37,913 bases of DNA. Origin: an uncultured Ruminococcus sp. Its GTDB lineage: Bacteria > Bacillota > Clostridia > Monoglobales > Monoglobaceae. The DNA lies in contig CADBUP010000186.1 of NCBI GenBank assembly GCA_902797885.1, positions 1 to 37,913 on the forward strand, in the 5' to 3' direction. Position 1 is the first letter of the stretch, and each line of letters starts with the position of its first letter. Below are positions 6,720 through 17,426 of the stretch, piece after piece. The translations under genes were made by a program, and so were the position numbers. The notes beneath the pieces were generated by a model. The model did no database searches. It was not told the DNA's origin and was given only the letters and a program-made list of their open reading frames with translations.

Positions 6720-8297
6720 TTAGCCTAGATTTCTTTTTATGTCTTGTCGGCTAATTATTAGGGATTGAGCATATTTTGGTTGTCCACATGGCACTTTATC
6801 CCCAACACGAGCAAAAGGAAAGACGATAAGCGTGACTTCAATCCTATCGTCATATACGAGAATCTGGTCTATTAACTTGTCAAAGAGCATTTTTTGAAGC
6901 TCGTCATTTTCTGAGCCATAAAGCGATAAAAGCTCTTGAAGGTATGAATACACGCCTTCGGGCGTTACTGCGCCTTGTAGCGCCGTTTGGAGCGTAATAA
7001 GCGCATTTTCTGTGTCTAGTAGCTCTTGCTTGTATAAAGCACTGTCCGCATCGCCTTGAGCTTCGGTTATTTCTTCTTCATATACTTTCCGGCGAATCTT
7101 TTGGAGTATGCTTTCAATTTTCTCTTTACGCTTCATCAGTTTTTCGCGTTCGGTCTGCATATCATCAACAGAATTGCCGGCAGCGGTTGCAATCTGCGCC
7201 GAAATAGAGCGCATGGCTTCTTCATTTAAAATGTGCTGTTTAATTTCGCGTAAGCAATACGCATCAATCTGGTCTTTGCGGATATTCTTAGCATCGCAAG
7301 TGCCTTTTATCTTTTTGTTAGCGCAGTGATAATATGTGTATTTGTGCTTACTATCTTTGCGGTAGCCTTTGTATGTACCGAACATATGACCGCCACATTT
7401 AGCGCAAGTGATTTTACCGGTCAAAGAGTAGAGCCGTTTGGTGCGCCTTGGCTTCACTAAATTGTTATTGTGGTGACGAATCTGCACACGATTCCACAAA
7501 TCCATATCTATAATAGCTGGCACGCAATTCTCTATTTTAAGCGGCTCATAGCCTTTTACAGAATAATCGCGCGTGCCGATGTAAAACTCATTTTTGAGGA
7601 TGCGCGCAATGGTTTGCTGCCCAATAATATCACCGCGGCGGCCTTTGATGCCCTTAGTGCGCATGGTCGTTTGCACGAAATTAAGAGAAAAGCCATCTGC
7701 ATAAAGCTCAAACATTTCACGCACCACCGCCGCTTCTTCTTCATTAGGGCGGTATTTTTTGCGCTCTTTACCACGCGTCATCTCGCCAGTATTGTAAAGC
7801 TCATAGCCATACGGCACGAATCCACCCAAATAATAGCCTTGCTGGGCGGCAAAATACATACCCGATTTAACATGGGCGGCAATGATAGAAGCTTGCAGCT
7901 CGTGCATAGCAAATAGATTAGTGCCAGAAAACTTGCCATGTGGGTCGCTCATGTCAATCCGCTCGATAACCGACTCAATCATGATACCGTACTTTTCGGA
8001 CAACTCATGGTTATAGTTCAGCGCATCTCTGGTATTACGGAATGACCGCGAGAACGAGAAAACAATGATTTTGTCGAACTTCTTTTGCGCTGCATCTGCC
8101 ATCATGCTGTCAAACGCTTCACGGCCAGCCACTTTGCGGCCAGACTTCGCCTCATCAATATAAGTGCCAACTAGCTCATAGTCCTCAACTTCAATATACT
8201 TTGTACACTCGCTCACTTGATACTCAATAGAGAATGACTCGGCTTGGCGGTGTGAAGAATAGCGGATATAAATAACTGCTCTTTGTTTCTTTTTCAT
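6720..8297 (-). CDS. Large serine recombinase (phage integrase)
   Basis: 525 residues from the start at 8297 (minus-strand ribosome site AAAGGA about 10 bases before). The N-terminal resolvase domain begins AVIYIRYSSHRQAESFSIEYQ, with catalytic Ser at residue 14 or 15, and has YIDEAKSGRKVAGREAF and IIVFSFSRSFRN. The recombinase domain follows (YGYELYNTG ... GDIIGQQTIARILKNEFYIG). A zinc ribbon (CAKCGG ... YYHCANKK ... GTCDA) and a coiled-coil region then lead to the C-terminus. This is the layout of integrases that join attP to attB in one direction, with a separate directionality factor for excision. An in-frame ATG at 8387 exists but has poorer support. It is the only minus-strand protein gene; its presence makes the phage temperate. 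Confidence 0.93.
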   Translation of the reverse strand: MKKKQRAVIYIRYSSHRQAESFSIEYQVSECTKYIEVEDYELVGTYIDEAKSGRKVAGREAFDSMMADAAQKKFDKIIVFSFSRSFRNTRDALNYNHELSEKYGIMIESVIERIDMSDPHGKFSGTNLFAMHELQASIIAAHVKSGMYFAAQQGYYLGGFVPYGYELYNTGEMTRGKERKKYRPNEEEAAVVREMFELYADGFSLNFVQTTMRTKGIKGRRGDIIGQQTIARILKNEFYIGTRDYSVKGYEPLKIENCVPAIIDMDLWNRVQIRHHNNNLVKPRRTKRLYSLTGKITCAKCGGHMFGTYKGYRKDSKHKYTYYHCANKKIKGTCDAKNIRKDQIDAYCLREIKQHILNEEAMRSISAQIATAAGNSVDDMQTEREKLMKRKEKIESILQKIRRKVYEEEITEAQGDADSALYKQELLDTENALITLQTALQGAVTPEGVYSYLQELLSLYGSENDELQKMLFDKLIDQILVYDDRIEVTLIVFPFARVGDKVPCGQPKYAQSLIISRQDIKRNLG

Positions 8298-8310
8298 GAT
8301 ATAACATTCC

Positions 8311-8379
8311 TTTGCTTCAAAAATAACAAAACCGAAGCAAATAACAGAGGTAATTTGCTTCATGGTTGCTTCAAAAATA
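8311..8379. repeat. TTGCTTC repeat cluster in the integrase leader
   Basis: TTTGCTTCAAAAATA (8311-8325), TTTGCTTCA (8354-8362) and TTGCTTCAAAAATA (8366-8379) are direct copies; GAAGCAA (8334-8340) is an inverted copy. Another inverted copy, GAAGCAAA, lies beyond the other end of the integrase gene (6634-6641). The cluster could be regulator operators or part of attP; the sequence cannot separate these. Confidence 0.6.
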
Positions 8380-8411
8380 TAACTCACTTCAATTTAAGAT
8401 ATAACGTTGCG

Positions 8412-13470: not shown

Positions 13471-13836
13471 ATGTGGAAAAGCTGTGCAAAATGTCATAAG
13501 ATTCATCCAGCTAACTACCAATGCAACGCCGGTAGGATAGCCCGCAAAGTAACCCCAGACCAAAAGCTAAGAAGCACAAGCAGATGGCAAACAAAGCGTG
13601 AGGAAATAAAGGATGCGAGCAAGTGGCTGTGTGCTATATGTCTTGAAGAAGGTGTGTATAACTACAATGATTTAGAGGTTCATCACATCACTAAACTAAA
13701 AGACGATGCAGAAGGATTGTTAGATAACTACAACTTAATATGCTTATGCAAGCACCACCACGAGCTTGCCGATGCGGGCAAGATAGATGCTGAACATCTG
13801 AGAGAATTAGCGAAGAACCGCGAGAATACCGGATAA
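13471..13836 (+). CDS. HNH endonuclease (packaging-associated)
   Basis: 121 residues. Cys pairs (CAKC near the start, CAICLEEG mid-protein) precede the HNH motif LEVHHITKLKDDAEGLLDNYNLICLCKHHHELA, where the His pair, the Asn and the last His form the active site. HNH nucleases placed near terminase genes help cos cleavage and terminase activity in HK97-like phages. Here a methyltransferase lies between it and the small terminase, which is unusual. It follows the endolysin by 19 bases. Confidence 0.9.
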   Translation: MWKSCAKCHKIHPANYQCNAGRIARKVTPDQKLRSTSRWQTKREEIKDASKWLCAICLEEGVYNYNDLEVHHITKLKDDAEGLLDNYNLICLCKHHHELADAGKIDAEHLRELAKNRENTG

Positions 13837-14027
13837 CCCCCCCTAGGGGTACGATAGGGGAGCAAAGTGACTTCCACACAACTCGCCCACCTTCAAATAC
13901 AAAAATAACGATTTTCCATGAGTTTTTTGGAAAAAGCGTATAAAACTAGGGGAAATCCCTCTAAAACGGTTTAATTTGCGCCAAAACGCGGCAAAACTAA
14001 AAAGAGGGGTGAAAATAAGGAGATAAG
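13837..14027. other. Intergenic region after HNH; candidate cos/packaging region
   Basis: 190 bases without a gene. It begins with seven C bases, then the palindrome CCCCTAGGGG (13840-13849), then ACGATAGGGG. In many cos-type phages the cohesive end lies between the HNH gene and terminase, with C/G-rich palindromes. I cannot identify the cut site from sequence alone. The rest is AT-rich with no clear hairpin or promoter. An AAGGAG just before 14028 serves the methyltransferase. Confidence 0.3.
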
Positions 14028-15342
14028 ATGAATAAATTGCCTGTCAACCCCACGGGGGGGGGGGGGACACTTACAAGAAACTAAAAAGGAGGCGGCCAAG
14101 CTGCCAGAATATCCAAACATACCAATCGCTGACCTCGCGCCATACGAACGAAACGCGCGAACGCACAGCGATGAGCAAATAGAGAAGATTAAAAACTCAA
14201 TTAACGAATTTGGCTTTGTCGCACCGGTCATAATTGACGAAAACAATATGATTCTTGCCGGACATGGCCGTGTGGAAGCTGCAAAGGATGCCGGACTAAA
14301 TGAAGTGCCATACCGACGCATCACAAATTTGAATGAAGACCAGAAGAAAGCCTACATTCTAGCCGATAACAAACTTTCAGATATGGCCGGCTGGGATGAG
14401 GAAATGTTGCGCGAAGAACTGGCCTCTATTTCCCTTGATATGGCGGACTTCGGTTTTGACGAGATTATAGAAGAAAATATAGAGCTAACCGAAGACGACT
14501 TTGACGAAACCGAAGATAAAGTGGAAGCTGTTGCTAAAACAGGGGAACTATACCAACTAGGCGATCACCGGCTTTTATGCGGCGACTCAACCAGCGAGGA
14601 AGACGTGTGGCACCTCATGAAAGACGAAGAAGCCGACCTTGTAGTCACCGACCCGCCGTACAATGTGAATGTATCAAATAGCGAGGGCTTAACTATTGAA
14701 AATGACAACATGGACGAAGTAGCCTTTGTGGATTTCCTAGACGAAGCTTTTGCAAATATGGCTCGCCATCTTAAAGAGGGCGGCGCATTTTATGTTTGGC
14801 ACGCTACTAATAGTGTAGTGGCCTTTAAAACAACACTAGAGGGAAATGGCCTTATAGTTAAGCAGGAGCTTGTATGGAATAAGAGCCAACTTGTAATGGG
14901 TCGCCAGGATTATCAATGGAAACACGAGCCGTGCTTTTATGGATGGAAACCCGGAGCAGCACATTATTTTACCGATAAACGCACTTACACCACCGTTATA
15001 AACGAAAAGCCAATAGAAATAGATAAGCTAACGCGAGAAGATGCCATAAAAATGCTTAAAAAGGTTTATGCGCTAGAAAACACCGTGCTTAATTACGATA
15101 AGCCAAAACATAACGATTTACACCCTACAATGAAACCACTAGACCTTATAGGCCACCAAATTAAAAACAGCAGCAGGCCAGGCGAAATTGTGCTTGACTT
15201 ATTTGGTGGCAGCGGAAGCACTTTGATGGCGTGCGAGCAACTAGGCCGTAAATGCCGAATGATGGAATACGACCCGCACTATGTAGACGTGATTATCGCA
15301 CGTTGGGAAAAAATGACCGGTAAAAAGGCGGTGAAATTATGA
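14028..15342 (+). CDS. ParB-domain DNA methyltransferase, out of frame at a G13 tract (phase-variable)
   Basis: The start ATG 14028 has AAGGAG 7 bases before it, but with 13 G bases at 14054-14066 the frame stops after 18 codons. With one G fewer, translation runs through GGGG-HLQETKKEAAKLPEYPNIP into the full enzyme, 437 residues. The N-terminal ParB-like domain (ADLAPYERNARTHSDEQIEKI ... ILAGHGRVEAAKDAG) is followed by a beta-class N4/N6 amino-methyltransferase: catalytic motif TDPPYNV, target region, and SAM-binding DLFGGSGSTLMACEQLGR near the end. Beta-class order (DPPY before FxGxG) is normal for this fusion. The next internal ATG in frame (14248) would remove most of the ParB domain and lacks a ribosome site. 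No partner restriction gene is seen. It likely protects phage DNA or alters expression when ON. Confidence 0.85.
14054..14066 (+). repeat. Homopolymer tract of 13 G in the methyltransferase 5' end
   Basis: Thirteen G bases in an otherwise AT-leaning region, placed 26 bases after the start codon. Such tracts slip during replication and switch genes on and off. 12 or 15 G would be ON here; 13 and 14 are OFF. Confidence 0.9.
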
Positions 15343-15353: not shown

Positions 15354-15376
15354 AGAAGCATAAGGAGCATAAAACC

Positions 15377-15751
15377 ATGACTAAAAGTCTCAATGAACAA
15401 GCCCAAGAAATTATAAAAATTGCCGAGGATTCCGGCGTTCAATCTAACTTTTTCTTTTTGACAACATTTAAGCGGTACCAAGTGCAGCTTAACATTTTGG
15501 CGGATTTAGAAAAACAGATTAAGTCCAGAGGTTCAACGGTAACAAAAGAATATGTGAAAGGCCGCCAAAACCTGTATTCTAATCCAGCGGTGTCCGATTA
15601 CAACCGCACCACAGATAGCGCCAATAAAACCGTGTCAACTTTGATGAAAATTATTAAAAGCTTTAATGTTGGTGATGATGCCGATAAGGAAAAAGACGAC
15701 TTAATGGCAGCGATAAATGGCGGTGACGATTATGACGAGGAAGATAACTGA
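15377..15751 (+). CDS. terS: Terminase small subunit (P27 family), probable
   Basis: 124 residues. Its middle, GSTVTKEYVKGRQNLYSNPAVSDYNRTTDSANKTVSTLMKIIKSF, has the spacing of P27-type small terminases (a start helix, a short NP loop and a long helix). The protein binds DNA at the packaging site and recruits the large subunit. The place directly before the large terminase supports this. The acidic C-terminus (DDADKEKDD ... DDYDEEDN) overlaps the next gene by 35 bases. AAGGAGC lies 9 bases before ATG 15377. Confidence 0.75.
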   Translation: MTKSLNEQAQEIIKIAEDSGVQSNFFFLTTFKRYQVQLNILADLEKQIKSRGSTVTKEYVKGRQNLYSNPAVSDYNRTTDSANKTVSTLMKIIKSFNVGDDADKEKDDLMAAINGGDDYDEEDN

Positions 15752-17426
15752 TTGTAAAGCATATCAGTTTTGCCAGCGCTCCATAGACCAAGAAACTACC
15801 CCGAAATATGTCAAACTTCAAATGGCCGATTTCATGCGAATTTGCGAGGGCAAAAACGACAAATACATGATAAGCGGCAAGAAGCTCAAACAGCTCGAAA
15901 ACATTTTGAAAATCCTAATAATGCCAAAGGGTTTAAAAGCCGGTCAAACTCTTTATGATTGCACCATGGGCTACCAATGGCTATTCTACACCGCTATTCT
16001 TTGCGTGGTGCATCGCGACAACCCAAACCGCCGCCGCTACGAAACCGGAGTGCTAGAACTATGCCGCAAAAACTTTAAAACTTACACAATTGCCTCCATC
16101 TTTATTTTGTTATTTCTTACCGAGCCAAAGTTTTCAAAGTTTTTCAGTGTAGCGCCAGATGGCACACTGAGCCGCGAGGTGCGCGAGGCTATCACGGAAA
16201 CGCTTAAAAGCTCGCCAATGGTTTACCAATCCGGCGATGGCGTGAGGTTTAAGATTTTGCGAGATAGCATAGAATTTAAGCCACAGCAAACCAAATACTA
16301 CCCGCTATCATACAGCACTAGCCGTATGGATGGTCGTTTGCCTAATGCCTTTATCGCTGATGAGGTGGGCGCGCTGCCAAGCAACTACGCAATAGAAGCC
16401 ATGAGATCTGGGCAGCTTAACATTTTGAATAAGCTCGGCTTCATTATCTCCACCAAATACCCCACAATAGATAACCCATTCGAGGATGAAGTAGGCTACT
16501 CTAAAAAAGTGCTAGATGGTCTTGAAAAAGACGAAACCCGCTTTGCGCTGCTCTATGAGCCGGATGATGTGAAAGGCTGGGAAAGCAATGACCTTATTTT
16601 GCAACAAGCCAACCCAGTAGCGCTAGAAATACCGGAAATCTGGGAAGATTTGATTAAAAAGCGCGCCTACGCCATAGCGGTGGAGAGCGCCAGAGAGAAC
16701 TTTATAACCAAGCACTGTAATATCATTTATGCAAATGATTCAGAAGGCTACATCCAGCTTAACGACTTGCGCGCGTGCAAGGTGGCCAATATAGACTGGC
16801 AAGGCCGTGTGGTTTATTTAGGGCTTGACCTTTCAATGTCTGGCGATAATACCAGCGTGTCAATGCTTGCACTAGATGATGATAACAGCATACTAGCCGA
16901 GAGCTGGGCTTTCATCCCAGAAGGGCGCATAGATGAAAAGACCGTAAGCGAAAAGGTCAATTACCGTGAGCTAATAAAGACCGGTAAGGTGATGGCTTGT
17001 GGCGATAAGATTATAGATTATGGCTATGTGGAAAACTTTATTATGGGCATAGAAGAAAAGTATGGTGTGCAGATACAAGCCATTGGCTTCGATAAGTGGA
17101 ACGCTATGAGTACAGCCCAGAAGCTCGAAAACGCCGGTTATAACATGGTAGAAGTAAAGCAACATTCTAGCGTATTGCATCCACCCACCAAGCTGCTCAA
17201 AGAGAAGGTGTTAAGCGGTGAATTTCAATACTCAAATAACAATCTATACGAGATTAACTTTCAAAATGCGCGCTGCACTTACGATACTAATAAAAATATG
17301 TATGTCAATAAGAAAAAGTCAAATGGCAAGGTAGATATGGTTGTAAGCACGATTATTGCTACTTATTTGCTCGAACAAGACGCTTTACTTGACCAAGCTG
17401 GCGGATTTACCGTGCAAGTGGTTTAA
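15717..17426 (+). CDS. terL: Terminase large subunit
   Basis: 569 residues. The ATPase domain has a Terminase_1-type Walker A variant (CRKNFKT, residues 116-122) and Walker B FIADEVGA (about 212-219). The nuclease domain begins YLGLDLSMSGDNTS (metal Asp 371), then GFDKWNA (457-463) and KVDMVVSTIIATYLLEQ. It pumps and cuts phage DNA. An ATG at 15732 after GGCGGTGA is an equally good start and would save five residues. The CRKN-KT loop lacks the usual second Gly, as in some members of this family. Complete length for the family. Confidence 0.93.
   Translation: MAVTIMTRKITDCKAYQFCQRSIDQETTPKYVKLQMADFMRICEGKNDKYMISGKKLKQLENILKILIMPKGLKAGQTLYDCTMGYQWLFYTAILCVVHRDNPNRRRYETGVLELCRKNFKTYTIASIFILLFLTEPKFSKFFSVAPDGTLSREVREAITETLKSSPMVYQSGDGVRFKILRDSIEFKPQQTKYYPLSYSTSRMDGRLPNAFIADEVGALPSNYAIEAMRSGQLNILNKLGFIISTKYPTIDNPFEDEVGYSKKVLDGLEKDETRFALLYEPDDVKGWESNDLILQQANPVALEIPEIWEDLIKKRAYAIAVESARENFITKHCNIIYANDSEGYIQLNDLRACKVANIDWQGRVVYLGLDLSMSGDNTSVSMLALDDDNSILAESWAFIPEGRIDEKTVSEKVNYRELIKTGKVMACGDKIIDYGYVENFIMGIEEKYGVQIQAIGFDKWNAMSTAQKLENAGYNMVEVKQHSSVLHPPTKLLKEKVLSGEFQYSNNNLYEINFQNARCTYDTNKNMYVNKKKSNGKVDMVVSTIIATYLLEQDALLDQAGGFTVQVV

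Follow-up and report, generated by a model that had tools for sequence, protein, structure and literature searches.

A DNA methyltransferase (MTase) gene carried by a temperate phage is probably an ON/OFF contingency locus, in which slipped-strand changes in the length of a homopolymer, a run of 13 G residues (G13) close behind the start codon, decide whether the protein is made. This reading is drawn from the anatomy of the locus and from comparison with related sequences; the strongest comparison is with a sister phage that retains the tract at a different length.

Phage context and the methyltransferase frame

The window, by which we mean the whole 37,913-nucleotide stretch of DNA that was analyzed, is a near-complete temperate siphophage, with both contig ends falling inside tail genes. 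Its gene set includes an amidase endolysin, an HNH endonuclease, the MTase, the small and large terminase subunits, portal, protease, capsid, tape measure and tail genes, and a serine integrase is encoded on the reverse strand (6720–8387). The MTase gene lies on the forward strand, as do the HNH endonuclease gene beside the cos/terminase module (13471–13836) and the genes for the terminase small (15377–15751) and large (15717–17426) subunits. It is preceded by a forward-strand 5′ untranslated region (UTR; 13890–14027) that runs from a probable cos end and is common to tract-free relatives. When the UTR of the window was aligned with those of four related contigs (L022, L023, L024 and L048), all four were found to begin or end at one aligned column, at about position 13890 of the window, and the UTR aligned up to the MTase start in each of them. 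The shared contig-end column suggests a cos end and, since this putative end lies about 140 nt before the ATG at 14028, the MTase would be the first gene of the late module. The G tract was rejected as a required part of cos, because relatives with a homologous UTR and cos are tract-free.

The MTase frame (14068–15342, forward strand) is intact to its TGA stop. It matches two Pfam families, ParB_N (PF02195; about 14116–14346) and, over the full length of the family, N6_N4_Mtase (PF01555; methylase domain at about 14635–15294), and belongs to phrog_498 (E = 4.6e-156). The motif order, with DPPYN (motif IV) before FGGSGST (motif I) and both after ParB_N, is that of the ParB-N6/N4 class, and the nearest solved chain by sequence is CcrM (6pbd, E = 5e-12). 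An earlier note on this DNA had described the frame as otherwise intact with DPPY and FGGSGST motifs, and the motifs and both Pfam domains are indeed present. The PADLOC models matching the MTase are type II-like or orphan, and the only neighbouring nuclease tested was the HNH endonuclease; on these grounds, a type III phasevarion, in which a Mod protein has a Res partner, was rejected.

The G tract and its length in a sister phage

A Shine–Dalgarno (SD) sequence, AAGGAG (14017–14022, forward strand), serves ATG 14028, which opens an 18-codon leader ORF (14028–14084, forward strand), which with G13 reads MNKLPVNPTGGGGTLTRN-stop, the OFF frame, and ends at TAA 14082–14084. Within the leader lies the G13 homopolymer (14054–14066, forward strand), the proposed switch. 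The earlier note had singled out this ATG with its ribosome site and early stop, and had claimed that loss of one G would fuse it to the MTase frame; both statements were borne out. By frame arithmetic, the ORF from ATG 14028 reaches 437 aa as an MTase with G12 and 438 aa with G15, and stops short at 50 aa with G11, 18 aa with G13 and 51 aa with G14, all three being OFF lengths. A change in tract length toggles an otherwise intact MTase ORF, as at a contingency locus. The pure tract is longer than chance would give: in dinucleotide shuffles, the expected number of G9 runs for the window is 0.05. Across the 2.58-Mb assembly there are just two runs of G9 or more, each of them closely following an SD-ATG and lying out of frame.

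In the UTR alignment, ATG 14028 pairs with the codon at which the MTase starts in tract-free relatives. Because these relatives start at the aligned ATG, the leader with its G tract is probably an insertion downstream of the native start. With an alternative placement of the gap, the CTG at 14101 could be a remnant of the old start. No closer relative was found in the host's family, where the best reached 46%, and a search of isolated phages for this stretch gave weak partial DNA matches only.

The nearest relative, L022 (IMG/VR 3300029305_000050), encodes an MTase with 89% amino acid identity and is, among the relatives compared, the only one with the tract. Its leader reads ATGAATnAAnnGCCTGTCAACCCCAC followed by G10, so that the tract is kept but differs in length and phase from the G13 of the window. 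The element CCTGTCAACCCCAC plus G run is identical between the two phages, and the linker after the tract is slightly different in L022. The L022 MTase is also OFF, in the other phase, and needs G8 or G11; the window and L022 are the two known copies, and both are OFF. In their ON forms, the N-termini of the window and L022 proteins align (MNKLPVNPTGGGGHLQETKKEAAKLPEYP and MNQAPVNPTGGGADLEKIKKGAGKLPDYP, respectively). Synonymous sites in the two MTase genes are near saturation (pS 0.74), and dN/dS is about 0.02 over 418 codons, with zero stops or indels, which points to strong purifying selection on the MTase.

Because L022 keeps the tract at G10, in another phase, and because dN/dS is so low, an artefact, a pseudogene and frameshifting in a fixed direction are all disfavoured. 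If the MTase had been inactivated by the tract and were decaying, both copies might well be out of frame, as they are, but 418 codons free of stops and indels at near-saturated synonymous divergence make a pseudogene most improbable. It is also very unlikely that an assembly or sequencing error conceals a true length of 12 and an MTase that is always ON. Amplification and sequencing are prone to errors at long G runs, but L022, which comes from another assembly and has the shorter tract, is out of frame in the other phase, so that two independent errors would be needed. Moreover, the terminase, portal, capsid and 1212-aa tail tape measure genes are intact, giving no sign of general indel error, and even at 12 G the run would be a slippery tract of the contingency type. 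Programmed ribosomal frameshifting in a fixed direction was rejected, since the window needs +1 (or −2) and L022 needs −1 (or +2).

RNA polymerase, on the other hand, slips both ways, and transcriptional slippage would fit both the window, which needs −1/+2, and L022, which needs +1/−2. According to this explanation, mRNAs with one or two G more or fewer would provide a constant low MTase output, with the tract serving to attenuate it, and purifying selection on an apparently OFF MTase would be accounted for. However, homopolymers of this length are subject to slippage in DNA as well, which makes it unlikely that a fixed setting would persist, and other loci with the same layout occupy the ON frame. 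We therefore consider transcriptional slippage an unlikely explanation for the tract.

The earlier note had also claimed that the MTase frame has no start near its N-terminus. This is correct for ATG, GTG and TTG, the first of which in the frame is ATG 14248, within the ParB domain, but a possible leaky start was overlooked: on the forward strand (14086–14103), a perfect SD-like AAGGAGG (14086–14092) stands 8 nt before an in-frame CTG (14101–14103). Related phages, which the note had proposed as a check, agree to the same extent, in that the tract-bearing L022 lacks ATG, GTG and TTG near the MTase N-terminus downstream of the tract. Translation might begin at the CTG, with ribosomes perhaps reinitiating once they have read the 18-codon leader ORF, and the G tract would then belong to the leader and be no switch. 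The spacing is good, the CTG is retained in L022, and third-position-dominated substitution between the two phages sets in at about the CTG. Over the 11 codons that separate the tract from the CTG, differences fall mostly outside third positions, unlike in the MTase body, and since substitutions there show no third-position concentration, a protein-level role for this stretch is unsupported. Nevertheless, CTG initiation is rare, the SD-like sequence has weakened to AAGGGGG in L022, and a pure G run of 10 to 13 residues would be left unexplained. In tract-free relatives the normal start is an ordinary ATG at the corresponding position, and RNA folding around the G tract is unremarkable (z = −0.79), a result by which a stable RNA structure at the tract was rejected as well. 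An MTase start at the CTG in place of a switch is thus unlikely.

The leader contains a 25-nt run that is identical between the window and L022. We claim no extra DNA-level function for it, because another identical run in the 4.4-kb alignment is longer and because, with the amino acids fixed, chance alone would produce such a run about 2% of the time. The longest identical run, of 34 nt (15372–15405), extends across the beginning of the gene for the terminase small subunit.

The proposed switch and known systems

In the slipped-strand switch that we favour, translation would start at the native ATG 14028, with its AAGGAG, and pass into the short leader with its pure G tract, where slipped-strand errors during replication would add or remove G residues. 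Tract lengths that are multiples of three (12, 15) would fuse the leader to the ParB-MTase, giving an ON protein of about 437 aa; other lengths would stop within 18–51 codons and be OFF, which is the state of the sequenced copy. A leak through RNA slippage or CTG initiation may coexist with the switch. Because the MTase is the leftmost gene of the late operon, beside cos and the terminase genes, ON phages would be expected to methylate their own DNA before it is packaged, and OFF phages would not. The role usually proposed for orphan phage MTases is to protect progeny DNA from restriction by the next host. One lineage would accordingly yield both modified and unmodified virions, a hedge against whatever restriction systems the next host has. 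Slippage in vivo, methylation and benefit are the parts of this reading that we infer. If it is correct, a single infection would place a heritable bet on the next host's restriction; methylase switching by slippery tracts is already known from bacterial chromosomes.

Poly-G/C phase-variable genes in Campylobacter, Helicobacter and Neisseria include restriction–modification and methyltransferase genes (PMC6321876, PMC5135748, PMC3711429), and poly-G phase variation of bacterial methyltransferases is classic (PMC6321876, PMC3711429). The window locus resembles these loci in having a pure G tract near the 5′ end of the coding sequence, a frame set by tract length and a methyltransferase as target. 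It differs in belonging to a temperate phage of another lineage and in controlling an orphan, ParB-fused MTase in a packaging module, and the switching here is a predicted one. As in phasevarions, where simple sequence repeats occur in type III mod genes, repeat length would switch the frame of a DNA methyltransferase; unlike them, the window MTase is phage-borne, is not a type III Mod and has no restriction partner in view. Among phages, the closest counterparts are other phrog_498 MTases (such as those of Streptococcus phage EJ-1, Javan phages and Lactobacillus prophage Lj771), which share the domain order, about 45% identity and a position near the terminase; unlike the window, the relatives inspected in IMG/VR, L022 excepted, have ordinary starts with neither leader nor G tract. 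Phages are also known to switch host range or surface by inversion of the Mu G segment and by diversity-generating retroelements. The window would be like these in that a programmed DNA change would create variant phage particles, but its mechanism would be tract slippage, and the switched product would be a DNA methylase rather than a tail protein. No poly-G phase-variable phage methylase was described in the literature searched, which leaves out most subscription papers and is weak evidence for that reason.

Poly-G loci in the host lineage and in other phages

When 51 genomes of the host's order were scanned for an SD and ATG followed by at least nine G residues, six loci were found, compared to none with a reversed control. 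These are the window, a second contig of the same assembly (C203), a truncated locus from the same genus that is OFF (L318), and three chromosomal acyltransferase genes from the host's family (L315, L316 and L317). The acyltransferase genes have an SD-ATG-leader-G9 layout in the ON frame, with an SD and spacing much like those of the window. Acyl_transf_3 was detected in the two that were scanned, the third being a near copy, and the three are likely to represent phase-variable surface acylation. Also in the host's family, a glycosyltransferase-like frame is broken at a G11 run (L067). On account of the acyltransferase G9 loci and this broken frame, surface genes of the host lineage seem to be subject to poly-G switching. 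The locus on C203 (1432–2062; L063/L214) has an SD-ATG followed by eight codons and G9, OFF relative to a 200-aa ORF, and its frame is interrupted again at a T7 run near 2057; this small contig resembles phage tail genes, with no family match.

A scan of IMG/VR for an SD and ATG followed after 5–35 nt by at least 10 G residues returned at least 120 stretches. We refer to a locus as leader-type if exactly one tract phase yields a long ORF. Together with a complete scan of IMG/VR for ATG-G12, this gave at least 28 such loci; among the matches listed, 4 were ON and 24 OFF, the latter split 12 and 12 between the two OFF phases. In the ATG-G12 scan, 5 of 32 matches were leader-type, compared to 0 of 17 for an ATG-C12 control and 1 of 9 for a GTA-G12 control, both also complete. 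Most of the leader-type genes look virion- or receptor-like, although only a few could be assigned, among them a Kelch-repeat virion gene (L112) and a virion structural gene (L164).

One leader-type locus, L180, is a second phage adenine MTase with this layout (PF01555, E = 2.5e-28), reading MMVDINKSPNQL, G10 and then the MTase, and is OFF. Its relatives (L223, L224, L225 and L283; 80–85% identical) are tract-free, with a plain start at the homologous place, which suggests that phage methylases acquired a G cassette on two or more occasions. Taken more broadly, phages may have a phasome of their own, made up of poly-G ON/OFF cassettes behind native starts that arose independently in at least two methylase lineages and in virion-like genes, such that a lysate would contain differently methylated particles; we put the chances of this at about even. 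Such phage contingency loci would be directly testable through tract lengths in virome reads.

Four other phage MTases were rejected as leader loci, since the apparent SD-ATG is coincidental and the tract lies within the gene. In three C5-methyltransferases (L130, L132 and L154), G10–G11 directly follows motif IV (GGFPCQ...GGGI), two being in frame and one out of frame; in an N6-MTase (L148), a G12 run lies in mid-gene.

Two large phage contigs carry several tracts each. On a 110-kb contig (IMG/VR 3300011977_000007), four paralogous-looking genes (L104, 6870 and 8083; L204, 990 and 2649) share the leader MPxINRLPIGGGAS, with tracts of G11, G11, G11 and G14, all OFF in the same phase; the set has the appearance of a receptor gene array subject to switching. 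On a 221-kb contig (IMG/VR 3300013947_000021; L129 and L133), several paralogous genes have an NIGGG leader and G10, and all share one out-of-frame phase.
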